This document shows, piece by piece, positions 3,987 through 57,956 of a stretch of 64,000 nucleotides of DNA. The translations under genes and the position numbers were made by a program. Positions within the stretch are counted from its first letter, which is position 1, and each line of letters starts with the position of its first letter. The stretch covers positions 25,148,792-25,212,791 of the forward strand of contig JAJLRJ010000011.1 of the NCBI GenBank assembly GCA_024195265.1, given 5' to 3'. The notes under the pieces were generated by a model, which was given only the letters and a program-made list of their open reading frames with translations, did no database searches and was not told where the DNA came from. The stretch is from Dendrophyllia cribrosa (taxonomy: Eukaryota > Cnidaria > Anthozoa > Scleractinia > Dendrophylliidae).

Positions 3987-4766
3987 CGAATTTCCACGAA
4001 GATTTCACACGTGTAACTTTTTACATATGGGATGAATATCCTCGATTTGTATTTGTGAATAATCCTTAAAATTTATTTGAGGAAACAACGAAGATCATCT
4101 TCACAAGGGAAAGCTGGTAATAACTAGAATATGTCCGAACACTAAAAAATTGTCAAAATAAATAATTAAGACAACAATTAATCCTCTTCAATCGCGGGGA
4201 TTGCTAGTTCATAAGGAGCATACAGCTTTGTGTTCGGTCCATCTTGTTTTGTTCACGCTTCGGTTCGACGTTTTTTTTTTTTTTATAAAACCACTGACAA
4301 CTCGTCAAAGTTTGCTATTTTTAAACATTTCATCACAAGACGGTAACGGGACCTATGGGAAGGTCTGTTGCCAGAAATATCACGAATAAATCTTTTTTTT
4401 CTGGCTAAAGCTCTTGACTCAGCCCTTAAACTGCTAGACAATAATTTGTGACTGTTCTAGATTAGGTTGTGCGTAGTTCCCTGGCATACCTCATATCCCG
4501 ATTCTTTATGATAATAGCACAAACGAGAGAGTTCCCTGTGATGTTTAAGATGATAAGTAATGACTGCACCGTTGCTATGGAGATCTGAGCTGCTTCCGAA
4601 TCCTTGTACACAGACATGATTCAACCAAGCACTTTCGTCTTATCTGGAAATACAGCTATTAAAACACACTACTAGAAGTTTCCTTTAGTAAAATTCCGCC
4701 CCAAACTTTCGTAACATCGGGAAATTTAACGCCTTTTGTTTTCGGAGGGATACAAAATGTCGTGTC
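3987..4766. other. No gene recognised
   Basis: AT-rich with several T-runs. The 4201-4389 open frame has no domain or splice support. Confidence 0.4.
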
Positions 4767-5140
4767 GGGTACGAAATAAGGTCAGCTAGGATTATGGGTA
4801 CGAAATAAGGTCGGCTAGGATTATGGGTACGAAATAAGGTCAGCTAGGATTATGGGTACAAAATAAGGTCAGCTACGATTATGTGTACAAAATAAGGTCA
4901 GTTATGATTATGGGTACGAAATAAGGTCAGCTAGGATTATGGGTACGAAATAAGGTCAGCTAGGATTATGGGTACGAAATAAGGTCAGCTAGGATTATGG
5001 GTACGAAATAAGATCAGCTAGGTTTATAGGTACGAAATAAGGTCAGCTAGAATTATGGGTACGAAATAAGGTCAGTTAGGATTATGGGTGCGAAATAAGG
5101 TCAGTTAGGATTATGGGTACGAAATAAGGTCAGCTAGAAT
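4767..5140. repeat. 29-bp minisatellite, about 13 copies
   Basis: The tandem unit contains GGGTACGAAATAAGGTCAGC followed by TAGGATTAT. Copies differ by a few substitutions (e.g. GTCGGC, ACAAAATAAGG). The unit is not a multiple of three and carries stops, so it is non-coding. Array edges are set by the first GGGTACGAAAT and the last copy running into TTTTCGG. Confidence 0.9.
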
Positions 5141-48300: not shown

Positions 48301-51300
48301 CCGTTTTTTGGTGCGTGTTGCTACAACCATAGACAACACACTTTAGTAGAACCATGTTTCTTCCTCAGGGCGCATCAAATAATGTGAAGAACTGAGAAAC
48401 CTCGACACCGGCATTCTTGTATTGACGTCACAGCGGACTATTTCCAGTCTTTCTTCTTGCGCGGTTTGTAACACACCGGAAGTGAAATTTCACGTTTTTA
48501 GACGGCTACAACGCAGAGAAGAAAAATCGATATCGGAAATTTTGTTTTCCATTTTCTTATCAGAACATCATGTAGATTCGATCAAGCAAATAAAAAAATC
48601 ACTGTCATATACACTTTAAGCTCTATTTTATTTCGGTTCGTGTGTAATTGTCAAGATTTTATGCGAGCTTTATTATAACATGCTTGTTTTGTAAAACAGC
48701 ATAAATTATAGAAGCAGGCGTGAACGAATGTTTACACGGGTAATTGTAAATTGTAATTGGATTTTATTAAAATTTAAATTATTCTGACACATACAAAATT
48801 TGAGAATATTTTTTGCTAAAGTTGTAAACTATGATATGAAAAGAAGGTTAATAACACGAAATTTCATTCAAAAATACCTTGACCTCATGCTACTTATGAC
48901 GTCATATCTCGTCACCATAGCAACAGATTCTCTCCCAACTTTACAACAATGTTTCTCAGCGATAAACGAATAGTTACTGATGTTAATAATAAATGGTTCT
49001 GAAGAAATTGGAGAATAACTTTCAGTGTGGGTGGCATCTATCCCCAACTCCTCGTGCGTCCGATGGCTAATGTAAATAGTTGGAATATATTCTTTGCCTT
49101 CGCAAAGCCAGACAGATTTAAAATCTTGCAAACAACATGATAACGGAGTTAATCATGGTATTGTGTTTGGAATAATCAGCTGGTCTCAGACCAAAGACAA
49201 TAGATTTATTATCAGTGTAGATATGAACAAAACATTTCGACGGTTTAAAAAGCAGGAAAGTGTTTTTGTTTCCGTGCAAGACCATATATATGTTCTCAGG
49301 TTCTTTGTGAAATCAGTAAAGCTTTGTAACCCTCGCTTTGAATAATAAGATACATGTGTTATCAAAGTTTGGCGAAGAAAATTTTTAAATTTTAAAAAGG
49401 GAAATTTAAAAAAATTGAAATTCGATTAATTTAGTGCTTTTGATGAAATCAATTGAAATCAAAAGCTTCCAGAGAATCTCTGCGCGTCCTGACTAGCAAT
49501 TACAGTTTGCTTCCACCAATTTTTGTTTTGTCCCAGATTCCCCCCCCCCCCCCCCCACCCCTCCTCTCTCGGATTTTTTCAAGAGCATTTATTGTTGGCA
49601 CATGTTGTCTTCAGTAGCTGTTCGAATATCCTTTTGACACATTTTGCTAAAGTTTGACGACAACCGGTTGCTACGGTAACAATATATGACGTCATAAGTA
49701 GCATGAGGTCAAGCCATTTTTGTATAAAAATGCGTGTTTTTCACCTGCTACTAAAAGCAGCCCAATGTTTAATTGTATCATATTTTCAACTCTAGAAAAA
49801 GATATTTGCAATTTCCACATTTTCCCGATAGGGTTTGAATTTTTGGTAAAATCCAAGATGGCGGCATATTGTCTGCCATTTTGGATGACGTCACGGACCC
49901 CAGCAGCGCTACAACCCATAACATTTACCCTATTTTGTAGAGCACATCACAGGCTATCTATTAGATGTGAAATATTTTCGAAATATTGTAACACCGCAAA
50001 AACCTAAGGGGGGGGGGGGGTGCAACAACCCCCCCCCCCCCCCCCCTTGTACCACGGTGGGGTATAAGTTTGTGTGTAGTCGTCCGAGGGTGAATGAATT
50101 AGTCATACATGCCATTAACCACTGTAATCCCTGGAAGCTTCGTAGTGAGGCTAGCATTCTCGTGACGTAAGCTTTATTAAATAACCCCTTTCATCCAACT
50201 ATATTTCTGCTTTTTTAACTTTGCTGTTACTCTGAAACCTCTTACTTCTGATTCCTTATAAAGTCATTGAGCAGAGCTGTTTTATGTAAATAGTTCTTTG
50301 CCACCTCCTAGTTTGGACATACGGCCTGGTCGCGCTACAGTCAAAAACAAAAATTAGCCGTGCAAAAATCGAGGAAAACAAAAGAAACCGCTCCGGTGGG
50401 ACACGCTTTTGTGTGTAGTTTTTGTTTTTATGTCATTTTGCACGGGCTAATTTTTGTTTTTGACTGTAGTGCGACCAGGCCCATAGTTTTAAACAAATGG
50501 GGAACCACGTGATACATATTACTTGATATCATTTTAGGTGATTATACCCTGTTCTTGGATCTTTGGAGTACTTCTGAATACCCCATGGGTCCTGGTTGAG
50601 AAGTATTGGAAGGAATTGGGACACTGCAATGGAATTTGGCCAAAAAAATGGATGGGCAAGGCTTATAGTATGACTTGGTTTTTGCTGATGGGATTTTTGC
50701 CAGTCTCTTTGATGGCTACTCTATACATCCGAGTCGTCTACAATTTGTGGTTCAAACGTGCAGATCCTAGTCAACAACAGGTTTGAAATAAGCCCATTAA
50801 ACGGTTTAGAAACTACATGTCTCTGACATTTCACATTTCTTATAGTATGAACACTATGTTTTCCTGATTTAATGCCAAACGCCGTTTAAGTAATCTTGTT
50901 AATCATTTTTGCTATGGACTAATTAAGAATGTCCCACTAAAGACGCTCGAGTTTCGAGCCTTGTCGATTCTTATTTTAAACTTTGGACGTACACGCAACC
51001 TTATACCCCAACTGCGCTACAAGAGGGTGGGAGGGGTGGTTGCAATCCCTCCCATGGGTTTTTGCGGTGTTAAAATTATCGGAATATTATACCTCTAATA
51101 GATAGTCTGTGATGTGCTCTACAAGATAAGGTAAATATCATGGGTTATGGCGCTACTGGACGTCATCCAAAATGGAGGCCTTACCAAAAAAAATTAACTT
51201 TATCAGAAAAATGCAAAAATTGCAAATACTTTTTGCTAAGGTTGTAAAATATGATACAAGTAAACATTTTTCTGCTTTTAGTAGCGTTTCATATGTTTTT

Positions 51301-52897: not shown

Positions 52898-53084
52898 TAG
52901 GCCATTTGCACGATGACGTCATATGACTACAACTACCAGAATCCTTCAGTTTTTTGTTTTGTAGTGCAAATTAGGGCTATTGTTATTTAAACCGCACTGG
53001 GATTACAAAATTTAAATAAGAAAGGAAAAACGGAATGAATTCTGGTAGTTGTAGTCAAATGACGCCATGGTGCAAATGGCCTAT
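52898..53084. mobile_element. MITE with GGCCATTTGCAC ends, CRE palindrome
   Basis: TAGGCCATTTGCACGATGAC...ACTACAACTACCAGAATCC pairs with GAATTCTGGTAGTTGTAGTC...GTGCAAATGGCCTA. Contains GATGACGTCATATG. The duplicate locus has the unoccupied sequence CTAGAATTTATCAC near 28042-28055. Confidence 0.85.
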
Positions 53085-53129: not shown

Positions 53130-54030
53130 ATAAAAACCTAAATAAAATATGCTTCATGTAAAGTGTCTAATTTCAAATATATTATCTCGCTTGAAAGAGA
53201 ATGGCAAGCATGCAAGAGGACTTGGACACAGAAAATCTGTGCTTGCTGTGATACAAACTTTAGTTATGACAAATCAAAGAAATTTTAGCGCAACTGAAAA
53301 ATGGCATGGAAAGATAAATGGCAAACGTACAATGTACTTGTAGCAGCCGGCACCGTTTTTTATTTGTTATAGACCTAATTGCAGAAATGTTGTCATAGAA
53401 AATAAAAAATACCAAATAGGAATGAATTACTTCAATGGCATTCACAGAGGTATTATTAAAAAAAAAAGGAAAAAAAATATTTCGCATACATGACCTTTCA
53501 ACAGATATTTCTTCCGAACAAATTTCCATCAAATAAATGAATCAATTTTTATTTTAGAAATGAATATTTTTTTTTTATTTCTCAAAAATTTCTCCTCTGT
53601 GAAAATCATTCAGGTAATTAATTCCCATTTGGTATTTTATATTTTTGTATGGCAACGTTTCATCTGTAATTAAGTGTATGACTACAAATACTAAAGAGGT
53701 TTCATAAGAACAAGCTATAACTTTATAATGCGCAACTTATCTCCATTAGTAGAGTTCGAAAACAAGAAAATGGCAAGCCGACAGAATGTTCCTCAAAATC
53801 ATTAGATGAGTTGTTTAGAATTTTGGGCAACCATGCAAATTGAATGGAATGAAATCGGAAAGAAATGAAATGAAATGGATCAAAACTGGAATGAAGTAAA
53901 ATGGAATGAATTGGTTTTAATGGATTGAAACGATCTCAACGGATATCATGAACATCTCCTATCGTTACGGTATTTAGCCTGATTTTAAATCCAGCACCTT
54001 TTCTTAGATAAAGTGAACAACGATAAATAC
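53130..54030. other. No gene recognised; TGGAATGAAA-rich patch
   Basis: 53149-53343 is an unsupported open frame. From 53838 to 53920 there are repeated (T)GGAATGAA(A) words, an imperfect minisatellite. Confidence 0.45.
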
Positions 54031-54118
54031 AATAAACTGCAAGGGCTGATCTGACTACGTAAAAAAAGTTGACTTTGCGAGACACCAACACAACAGAAAC
54101 CGATAAAGTAGGGTTGCA

Positions 54119-54163
54119 ACCGTGGACAGCTGTTTCGTTCTTGTTGGAACTCGTCAGCACGGT
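54119..54163 (-). ncRNA. Hammerhead ribozyme (left arm)
   Basis: Minus strand: stem I ACCGTG, core CTGACGA, stem II GTTC-(CAACAA)-GAAC, GAAA, stem III palindrome ACAGCTGT, cleavage triplet GTC, then CACGGT closing stem I. Stem I is six perfect pairs and stem II four. Stem III is two pairs with an AGCU loop in a monomer, or an 8-bp palindrome in a dimer. All invariant positions of the CUGANGA/GAAA/UH core are present. Confidence 0.8.
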
Positions 54164-54609
54164 GTAGCAAACTAAATGACGCTTTCAAGAATGCCAGCGC
54201 AAATAGATTACCGTTCACCATATCAGGTTCCGTACTTTGTACTCACCAGAAAAACGCATGCCACATCACTTGTCCCGGGGAACAGGGAGCCCAAAATGTC
54301 ACAAAGGTGTCTCGCAAAGAAAAATGTAGATGAAAAAGGCCAATCTGAACATTGAAACGCATGGACAAAACCATGTTTAAAGAAAACACAGCATATCGGA
54401 TCTGTAAGGACCAACGGTCCCAAAATATATAGAAATAGAAGTAAAATCTGCTATGAAGCGCAAACGATAATGCTGCTAACGGTATGCGTGATGTAGCGCG
54501 CGTGATTTGGGTGACAAGTGAATACAAAGTACGGAAACTGATATGGCGAACGGGTCATTGTGTAATCTATTTGCGCTAGCATTCTTATAGGCGTCATTTA
54601 GTTTGCTAC

Positions 54610-54654
54610 ACTGTGCTGACGAGTTCCAATAAGAACGAAACAGCTGTCCACGGT
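54610..54654 (+). ncRNA. Hammerhead ribozyme (right arm)
   Basis: Plus strand: stem I ACTGTG / CACGGT (six pairs, one G-U wobble where the left arm has C-G), core CTGACGA (54616-54622), stem II GTTC-(CAATAA)-GAAC, GAAA (54637-54640), stem III ACAGCTGT, predicted cleavage after C54648. The stem I change preserves pairing and the loop II change is outside the core, consistent with selection or recent common origin. Confidence 0.8.
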
Positions 54655-54742
54655 TGCAACCCTACTTTATCGGTTTCTGTAGTGTTGTTGTCTTGCAAAG
54701 TCAACTTTTTTACGTAGTCAGATCAGCCCTTGCAGTTTACTG

Positions 54743-55368
54743 TATGTGTGTTCATTTTTTGCCTTATTAGGTCTCTCGCAGATCCTACGTATACATGTAC
54801 CGTTAGCAATATTATAGTCCGCGGTACTTTGCAGATTTTACTTTTAAACAAAGATACGAGTATGCAAACTTTAAAAGATCTACTAAAGGTCCATTTTTTA
54901 CCCTTTACAAAGCCATTTTTCCGATTTGAAGTCAAAGATGCAATCATTTTTGTTATATTTTTGAAATCTACCAGACATAGTAATTTTGAATTCAATTTTC
55001 ACTGAATAGTAGCTATATGATAAGATTTAGTGAGTATCACAAAATGAAGAGTTTGTGTGGATTCTGAGGACACTCTCTTAGAGACATTTTGAATGGATTT
55101 TGAACAATGTTTGAAGGCTCGTAACTTTGTTGCTATCCAACTAAACACCATCAAACTTGGCAACATTACTAATATGAACGTGGTCTTTTATGTGGTTCAT
55201 TTAGTTGATAAATTAAATTAAATTTGCAAATCGACCCTGTACAACGTTTGGTGGGTGCTGGTTGGATTTTAAAAGTTATCAGCGTTTCAAGCCAGCGTGG
55301 GTACTTTTCGACCACAGCAGCCAGCTTATTCTTGTCTTCCGCGTTATTGTCATGTTTCCACCCAAAGA
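54743..55368. other. No gene recognised
   Basis: Complementary open frames 54723-54995 (-) and 54730-55005 (+) lack domains. 55060-55320 is AT-rich unique sequence leading into the satellite. Confidence 0.4.
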
Positions 55369-57956
55369 GTAGGTCCACCATTCGATAAATAAAGTACGCT
55401 CAACGCAGTCACAATGGAGGCGCGGTGATGTACGCAGTAGGTCAACCATTCGATTAATAGAGTACGCTCAACGTAGTGACAATGGAGGCGCGGTGGTCTA
55501 CGCGGTGGGTCAACCATTCGATAAATAAAGTACGCTCAACGTAGTCACAATGGAGGCGCGGTGGTGTACGCAGTAGGTCAACCATTCGATAAATAAAGTA
55601 CACATAACGTAGTCACAATGGAAGCGCGGTAGTGTACGCAGTGGGTCCACCATTCGATAAATAAAGTACGCTCAACGTAGTTACAATGGAGGCGCGGTGG
55701 TGTACACAGTAGGTCAACCATTCGATAAATAAAGTACGCTCAACGTAGTCACAATGGAGGCGCGGTGGTGTACCCAGTAGGTCAACCATTCGATAAATAA
55801 TTTACGCTCAGCGCAGTCACAATGGAGGCGCGGTGGTGTACGCTGTAGGTCAACCATTCGATAAATAAAGTACGCTCAACGAAGTCACAATGGAGGCGCG
55901 GTGGTGTACGTAGTAGGTCCACCATTCGAAACATAAAGTACACTTAGCGTAGTCACAATGGAGGCGCGGTGGTGTACGCAGTAGGTCAACCATTCGATAA
56001 ATAAAGTACGCTCAACGTAGTCACAATAGAAGCGCGGTAGTGTACGCAGTGGGCCCACCATTCGATAAATAAAGTACACTTAACGTAGTCACAATAGAAG
56101 CGCGGTAGTGTACGCAGTGGGTCCACCATTCGATAAATAAAGTACGCTCAACGTAGTTACAATGGAGGCGCGGTGGTGTACACAGTAGGTCAACCATTCG
56201 ATAAATAAAGTACGCTCAACGTAGTCACAATGGAGGCGCGGTGGTGTACGCAGTAGGTCAACCATTCGATAAATAAAGAACGCTCAACGCAGTCACAATG
56301 GAGGCGCGGTGGTGTACGCTGTAGGTCAACCATTCGATAAATAAAGTACGCTCAACGCAGTCACAATGGAGGCGCGGTGGTGTACGTAGTAGGTCCACCA
56401 TTCGAAAAATAAAGTACACTTAGCGTAGTCACAATGGAGGCGCGGTGGTGTACGCAGTAGGTCAACCATTCGATAAATAAAGTACGCTCAACGTAGTCAC
56501 AATGGAAGCGCGGTAGTGTACGCAGTGGGCCCACCATTCGATAAATAAAGTACACATAACGTAGTCACAATGGAAGTGCGGTAGTGTACGCAGTGGGTCC
56601 ACCATTCGATAAATAAAGTACGCTCAACGTAGTTACAATGGAGGCGCGGTGGTGTACACAGTAGGTCAACCATTCGATAAATAAAGTACGCTCAACGTAG
56701 TCACAATGGAGGCGCGGTGGTGTACGCAGTAGGTCAACCATTCGATTAATAGAGTACGCTCAACGTAGTGACAATGGAGGCGCGGTGGTCAACGCGGTGG
56801 GTCAACCATTCGATAAAAAAAGTACGCTCAACGTAGTCACAATGGAGGCGCGGTGGTGTACGCAGTAGGTCAACCATTCGATAAATAAAGTACACATAAC
56901 GTAGTCACAATGGAAGCGCAGTAGTGTACGCAGTGGGTCCACCATTCGATAAATAAAGTACGCTCAACGTAGTTACAATGGAGGCGCGGTGGTGTACACA
57001 GTAGGTCAACCATTCGATAAATAAAGTACGCTCAACGTAGTCACAATGGAGGCGCGGTGGTGTACGCAGTAGGTCAACCATTCGATAAATAAAGAACGCT
57101 CAACGCAGTCACAATGGAGGCGCGGTGGTGTACGCTGTAGGTCAACCATTCGATAAATAAAGTACGCTCAACGCAGTCACAATGGAGGCGCGGTGGTGTA
57201 CGTAGTAGGTCCACCATTCGAAAAATAAAGTACACTTAGCGTAGTCACAATGGAGGCGCGGTGGTGTACGCAGTAGGTCAACCATTTGATAAATAAAGTA
57301 CACTTAACGTAGTCACAATGGAAGCGCGGTAGTGTACGCAGTAGGTCAACCATTCGATAAATAAAGTACGCTCAACGCAGTCACAATGGAGGCGCGGTGG
57401 TGTACGCTGTAGGTCAACCATTCGATAAATAAAGTACGCTCAACACAGTCACAATAGAGGCGCGGTGGTGTACGTAGTAGGTTCACCATTCGAAAAATAA
57501 AGTACACATAGCGTAGTCATAATGGAGGCGCGGTGGTGTACGCAGTAGGTCAACCATTTGATAAATAAAGTACACTTAACGTAGTCACAATGGAAGCGCG
57601 GTAGTGTACGCAGTAGGTCAACCATTCGATAAATAAAGTACACTTAACGTAGTCACAATGGAAGCGCGGTAGTGTACGCAGTAGGTCAACCATTCGATAA
57701 ATAAAGTACGCTCAACGTAGTCACAATGGAGGCGCGGTGGTGTACGCGGTGGGTCAACCATTCGATAAATAAACTACGCTCAACGTAGCCACAATGGAGG
57801 CGCGGTGGTGTACGCAGTAGGTCAACCATTCGATAAATAAAGTACGCTCAACGTAGTCACAATGGAGGCGCGGTGGTGTACGCGGTGGGTCAACCATTCG
57901 ATAAATAAACTACGCTAAACGTAGTCACAATGGAGGCGCGGTGGTGTACGCGGTGG
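55369..57956. repeat. 68-bp satellite array, about 38 copies
   Basis: The unit contains ACCATTCGATAAATAAAGTA, CGCTCAACGTAGTCACAATG and GAGGCGCGGTGGTGTACGCA, then GTAGGTCA. Variants (ACACATAACG, AAGCGCGGTAGTG, GTGGGTCC) recur in fixed order, and near-identical blocks repeat 476 bp (7 units) and 1088 bp (16 units) apart, showing higher-order amplification. The 64-residue minus frames are shadows (3 x 68 is a multiple of 3). The last unit runs directly into the tRNA-like head of the SINE at 57934. Confidence 0.95.

Follow-up and report, generated by a model that had tools for sequence, protein, structure and literature searches.

Architecture of the inserted element

Positions 54027-54846 of the 64,000-nucleotide stretch of Dendrophyllia cribrosa DNA analyzed here (hereafter the window) constitute an inserted element made up of two 5'-truncated copies of one non-coding unit of approximately 514 nt, which are arranged head-to-head and overlap by 3 nt. 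Alignment with a 514-nt consensus unit, built from 12 full copies, decomposed the element with nothing left over and delineated the following features:

54016..54025, no strand: left target-site duplication AACAACGATA, 9/10 match to 54847-54856
54027..54489, minus strand: left block, unit 41-513 antisense, 85% to consensus, with a tail-less 3' end at 54027
54119..54163, minus strand: left type I hammerhead ribozyme (Rfam RF00163, 41.4 bits), predicted cut 54125/54124
54487..54489, no strand: head-to-head junction, the 3-nt overlap (microhomology) given by the block boundaries
54487..54846, plus strand: right block, unit 256-514 followed by 1-94 of the next unit, 86% to consensus
54610..54654, plus strand: right type I hammerhead ribozyme (Rfam RF00163, 35.7 bits), predicted cut 54648/54649
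54747..54846, plus strand: 3' tail, formed by the beginning of a following unit and confined to the right end; relatives likewise end in one of these two ways
54847..54856, no strand: right target-site duplication AACAAAGATA, the counterpart of the left one

Both outer 3' ends point outward, the right one carrying a tail of about 95-100 nt and the left one being without it. The original prediction had described a foldback of two inverted arms around a separate spacer. The inverted arms are indeed present (54027-54246 and 54518-54745, 90% identical over 229 columns including gaps, with 13 substitutions in 219 ungapped columns), but 54247-54489 still belongs to the left unit. The right unit, which begins at 54487, is shorter, and the supposed spacer corresponds to the stretch of the left unit that is missing from it. 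Likewise, the bounds proposed earlier, 54031 and 54742, give way to 54027 and 54846, the right tail having lain outside them. The view of the element as non-coding holds for both blocks, as no RT/GIY-YIG ORF was found in the window element, for which these non-coding blocks account in full; an ORF opening at the ATG within the consensus hammerhead encodes 32 aa, and the GC content of the window copy is 42%.

The element as a whole is flanked by an imperfect 10-bp target-site duplication (9/10), whose score was reached by 14 of 3000 random pairs with a tight window of +-2 nt and by 53 of 400 with a wide search window. Taken alone this is modest, and the case for a duplication thus rests mainly on the relatives described below.

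Several other features were observed in the window. A little to the right of the element lies a tandem array (55368-57951) of 38 copies of a 68-bp unit with 91% matches. Further hairpin or palindromic stretches at 50326-50478, 52907-53074 and 53366-53682, perhaps unrelated MITEs, gave sub-threshold hits to miRNA models, and the last of these shows an inverted self-match of 68%. A 5S rRNA match of 68.8 bits at 1893-2014 on the minus strand has several outer pairs broken, and is perhaps a 5S-derived repeat or a pseudogene. For a GPCR assembled from exons in the window, the best matches that bear a name come from Oculina, Stylophora, Montipora, Porites and Orbicella, which identifies the host as a stony coral, with identities of at most 57% among the hits covering at least 80% of the query.

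Conservation of the hammerhead ribozymes

Both arms score above the gathering score of 34 of the Rfam Hammerhead_1 model (RF00163), with 41.4 bits for the left hammerhead (54163-54119, minus strand; E 4e-7 for the 64-kb window) and 35.7 bits for the right one (54610-54654, plus strand; E 3e-5 for the 64-kb window). Each thus displays the core and three helices of a type I hammerhead above the gathering score, as had been anticipated. The finer points of that description also agree with the alignment: the invariant core (CUGACGA...GAAAC...GUC) is kept in both arms, a C-G pair of stem I in one arm is a U-G pair in the other, loop II differs by a single change, and stem III is palindromic. In the alignment with relatives described next, several positions of stem I and loop II outside the core are also invariant.

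Covariation was assessed in an alignment of 32 hammerheads (20 distinct), comprising the two arms and 30 of the 37 relatives found, from which seven with indels or rearrangements were left out. In this alignment 95.9% of cells are paired, a value reached by none of 500 shuffles, and six pairs have changed on both sides, a number reached by one of 500. The covariation score is 0.198, the shuffles averaging 0.084; further pair types were no more numerous than in shuffles (232/500). The hammerhead appears to covary across subfamilies, although the shuffles ignore relatedness and this is to be taken as support and not as proof. The covariation in the relatives together with the many genomic copies indicates that the hammerheads of the window are not chance occurrences, and we infer from their sequence that both might be capable of self-cleavage. 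Only one of the 16 older relatives scanned exceeds the Rfam gathering score. Between the two arms the hammerhead has 2/62 substitutions versus 11/157 in the rest (p=0.36), which does not support extra conservation, and in the 12-copy alignment it is not more conserved either (mismatch fraction 0.058 versus 0.054 in the rest); such a lack of additional conservation within copies is expected of dead insertions. A search of viral contigs with the hammerhead pattern gave no matches.

Genomic relatives, their ends and target-site duplications

Searching the 627-Mb genome with the element recovered at least 162 matches, in keeping with the expectation of multi-copy relatives; these come from the best 40 of 2215 first-look candidates, and the copy number is accordingly a lower bound. 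The Rfam hammerhead model gave at least 73 matches in the same genome, 72 of them over the cut-off (74 scored of 97571 loose candidates). For comparison 40 loci were assembled, namely 35 of the 40 best-listed element matches (window included) and five picked by their hammerhead hits, three of the latter because the hits formed an inverted pair. All of these five align with the unit, at 80-90% per piece, and represent a younger subfamily, with pairwise identities that, among the pieces listed, are mostly 94-98% and in some cases 85-92%. The unit is 514 nt long in the older consensus and 527 nt in the younger one, as measured from the tandem spacing in L035; longer tandem runs are restricted to some loci (e.g. 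L013, L015, L035, L050 and L056).

The orientation of the units follows a simple rule. Head-to-head pairs occur at 24 of the 40 loci, a share that may be overestimated given that the element query itself holds both orientations, while tail-to-tail pairs are absent and the other 16 loci are of a single orientation; with the five hammerhead-picked loci excluded the head-to-head count is 21/35. Both ends could be classified at 19 of the 24 head-to-head loci, L010, L012, L022, L049 and L053 being truncated or unclear. In 17 of these one end is tailed and the other tail-less, in two (L025 and L028) both are tail-less, and in none are both tailed.

A duplication score of 10 or more was obtained at 18 of the 40 loci (12 head-to-head and six single-orientation) versus none of 400 random pairs. 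Several of the six single-orientation cases are doubtful: in L026 and L052 the unit itself supplies the repeated sequence, in L045 the repeat is a microsatellite, and L016 and L017 are near neighbours sharing one repeat. Perfect duplications of 11-14 bp, with an A+T content of 76%, flank 11 of the 24 head-to-head loci (L014, L015, L019, L021, L023, L024, L027, L033, L034, L037 and L046), and every one of these combines a tailed end (unit 602-625) with a tail-less one (487-529, in the two numberings of 514 and 527). A perfect 10-bp repeat is also present at L049, whose ends at 551 and 481 fit neither end class. Twelve of the 24 head-to-head loci, including the window, score below 10.

Coding Penelope-like elements of the coral

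The same genome harbors coding Penelope-like elements. RVT_1 and GIY-YIG domains were recovered in three of the four ORFs tested, those of L029 (1111 aa), L031 (817 aa) and L032 (872 aa). The fourth, a 1331-aa ORF at L030:758-4750 whose place was listed by the GIY-YIG search, instead matches Pfam AAA_30 and Viral_helicase1 (SF1 helicase-like) with no RT, L030 being an element of another kind. In the list of 150 GIY-YIG matches, pairs within 10 kb comprise, by eye, 11 outward ('-,+'), no inward ('+,-') and one same-strand case. Three L029-family loci chosen from the 11 opposed pairs were examined, and the shared 3' parts of their head-to-head pairs are 98-100% identical. In all three, one side stops at ...AAAATTCTA and the other continues for 95 nt. 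At 65 nt ahead of the tail-less end there is a minimal hammerhead-like motif, which is exact in five of the six ends and changed in the sixth (C1R), and which was found by pattern, the Rfam model having given no hammerhead in L029 at E 0.5. The corresponding values in the non-coding unit are 96 nt from the hammerhead to the tail-less end and 95 nt for the tail. The coding Penelope-like copies L038-L043 have nearly identical 3' ends, and at the three loci examined their outer ends lie in (TA)n, which makes the duplications there unreadable. No convincing sequence similarity was detected between the unit and the coding Penelope-like loci examined (none at E 0.1; best E 0.46, to L030). Two families of one genome, the non-coding one with hammerheads and the coding Penelope-like one, share the head-to-head arrangement and the rule of one tailed and one tail-less end.

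Mechanism of insertion

The window element is most probably the product of one insertion of a non-autonomous hammerhead retroelement by Penelope-type machinery priming both strands, rather than a DNA foldback transposon. The units, their ends, the duplications in the relatives, the orientation rule, the covariation of the ribozyme and the end rule of the coding family can be read from the genomic sequence, and they suggest both the priming on two strands and an enzyme acting in trans. In such a process an RNA of the unit (about 514-527 nt, sometimes tandem) would be reverse-transcribed twice at one target, once per cut strand, with each cDNA starting at one of two preferred sites approximately 95 nt apart near the 3' end of the RNA and running inward. 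The two truncated cDNAs would be joined head-to-head at a short microhomology, and the joining would leave a duplication of about 10 bp outside the pair. The likely enzyme, to judge by the architecture, would be a Penelope-like protein with RT and GIY-YIG domains. Both blocks of the window span an intact cut site, which means that the template was uncut or re-ligated there; it may thus have been either circular or an uncut multimer.

The junctions bear on whether the two blocks arose as separate cDNAs or in a single reverse-transcription event, by self-priming on the antisense template or by template jumping. In 17 of the 24 junctions the gap or overlap is at most 21 nt, and in 16 of these the inner block ends lie 31-239 nt apart on the unit (215 nt in the window), as expected of two separately truncated cDNAs. 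Self-priming predicts nearly coincident inner ends, a condition approached by L015, where they are 9 nt apart, and by L022 and L027, in which the gap largely continues the minus block and nearly reaches the plus-strand sequence of the same unit positions; gaps of 53-159 nt occur in seven of the 24 junctions. Short palindromic stretches are present near the junctions of L021 and L022, and self-priming has been proposed, and is favored for rotifer Penelope, in the text of PMC3846280 dealing with head-to-head copies that have palindromes at the inverted junction. Against it, each of the two 3' sites is used by one outer end in 17 of the 19 classifiable loci. Most junctions are therefore compatible with two cDNAs that were truncated separately; a few are compatible with self-priming or template switching, which we consider an unlikely origin of the head-to-head arrangement. 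As a separate observation, the palindrome at the L022 junction (4751-4870) is made of hammerhead stem II and stem III sequence, as self-priming or template switching would give.

Predicted folding of the full read-through transcript of the window copy gave -450 kcal/mol, versus -209 for 20 shuffles, with both ribozymes inside the long duplex between the arms that had been foreseen; placed there, they would probably not cleave in this transcript. At hairpin loci such RNA would be largely double-stranded and could potentially be a natural source of silencing RNA. The arms were also considered as circular retrozyme monomers, a candidate that was discarded as their folds were no better than those of shuffles (z between -0.15 and +0.83 in eight folds, linear or circular); the arms are only a part of the unit.

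A further reading, which we regard as improbable, assigns the hammerhead a role as dimerisation element for dual priming. The palindromic stem III (ACAGCUGU) would pair two element RNAs, a dimeric Penelope-like protein would bring both to one target, and one RNA would be primed per strand, one per start site, making the head-to-head arrangement the normal outcome. The inserts span uncut ribozymes, and on this reading the selected role may accordingly be the pairing of RNAs rather than cleavage.

Very improbable, too, is a DNA foldback transposon or MITE with hammerheads fallen by chance into its terminal inverted repeats, for example one with a TA duplication inside ATACARTAAACTG. The inverted arms are long and similar, and TA is present at both arm ends, but the outer ends are unequal, only one bearing a tail, the inner truncation points vary between copies, copies of a single orientation occur, and the duplications are 11-14 bp and of variable length. 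Neither the identical terminal inverted repeats nor the fixed-length duplication that would place the element in this class was found, and the TA-duplication transposon suggested by the arm ends was abandoned in view of the tail and the longer duplications in relatives. Two independent insertions side by side in opposite orientation can be given hardly any credence, since single-orientation units do exist at 16 of the 40 loci but none of the 24 opposed pairs is tail-to-tail, at 11 loci the duplication encloses both units together, and no host DNA lies at the window junction.

Comparison with known systems

Single insertion by Penelope-type machinery is also the reading towards which the closest published parallels point; statements on cited papers refer to the portions of their text considered here. 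The element had at first been contrasted with a plain Penelope copy, a distinction not supported at the level of architecture: the head-to-head arrangement, the one-sided tail and the duplication of about 10-14 bp match published Penelope insertions. PMC3846280 describes copies of Penelope that have an inverted pLTR beside them, with one pLTR tailed and duplications of 8-10 bp, and according to PMC11167929 both strands are cut and extended by a Penelope protein that initiates reverse transcription internally, which is linked there to the tails. The coral unit is reminiscent of Penelope-like elements with an endonuclease, such as Pen2a of Adineta vaga (PMC3846280) and PAc of Anolis (PMC11167929), in its head-to-head terminal repeats, optional tail at one end, target duplication of about 8-14 bp and A+T-rich targets, and, as stated for PAc, in the hammerhead within the terminal repeat. 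It thus has the head-to-head terminal repeats, one-end tail and target duplication typical of the Penelope-like elements. Unlike Pen2a and PAc, however, it is without the RT and GIY-YIG ORF by which that class is defined, and its hammerhead differs from the minimal Penelope form in its stem I internal loop and invariant loop residues; no sequence similarity to the coral coding elements examined was detected.

The unit also resembles the metazoan non-LTR retrozymes. In the text of PMC7229834 those of Acropora millepora, a genome with more than 6000 type I hammerheads, are non-coding, of low GC, sometimes tandem, multi-copy in a stony coral and flanked by duplications of more than 4 bp. The coral unit shares with this class a non-coding multi-copy repeat with a type I hammerhead and a GC content below 50%, but its length of 514-527 nt departs from the 150-450 bp tandem unit published for the class (220-240 bp in Acropora; PMC7229834), as does its head-to-head arrangement at 24 of 40 loci, the word 'inverted' being absent from the main text of PMC7229834.

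Telomeric Penelope-like elements have been reported to carry hammerheads at their 3' end (PMC6431247), inverted repeats and target-site duplications are described within the Schistosoma W-elements, which that paper treats in connection with hammerheads (PMC8490949), and a review names Penelope-like elements and Terminons, but only as likely helper candidates, for the hammerhead retroelements of animals that lack any protein (PMC7761336). No description of a head-to-head non-coding hammerhead element was found in the portions of PMC11167929, PMC7761336, PMC4918200, PMC6431247 and PMC8490949 considered. In those of PMC3846280, PMC11167929, PMC7229834, PMC7761336 and PMC6431247, we did not encounter a Penelope-type insertion signature borne by non-coding hammerhead elements next to coding ones that obey the same end rule. 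For protein-less animal hammerhead retroelements, a shared signature that can be counted makes the helper hypothesis directly testable. Its presence in both coral families suggests what moves such ribozyme elements in animals.
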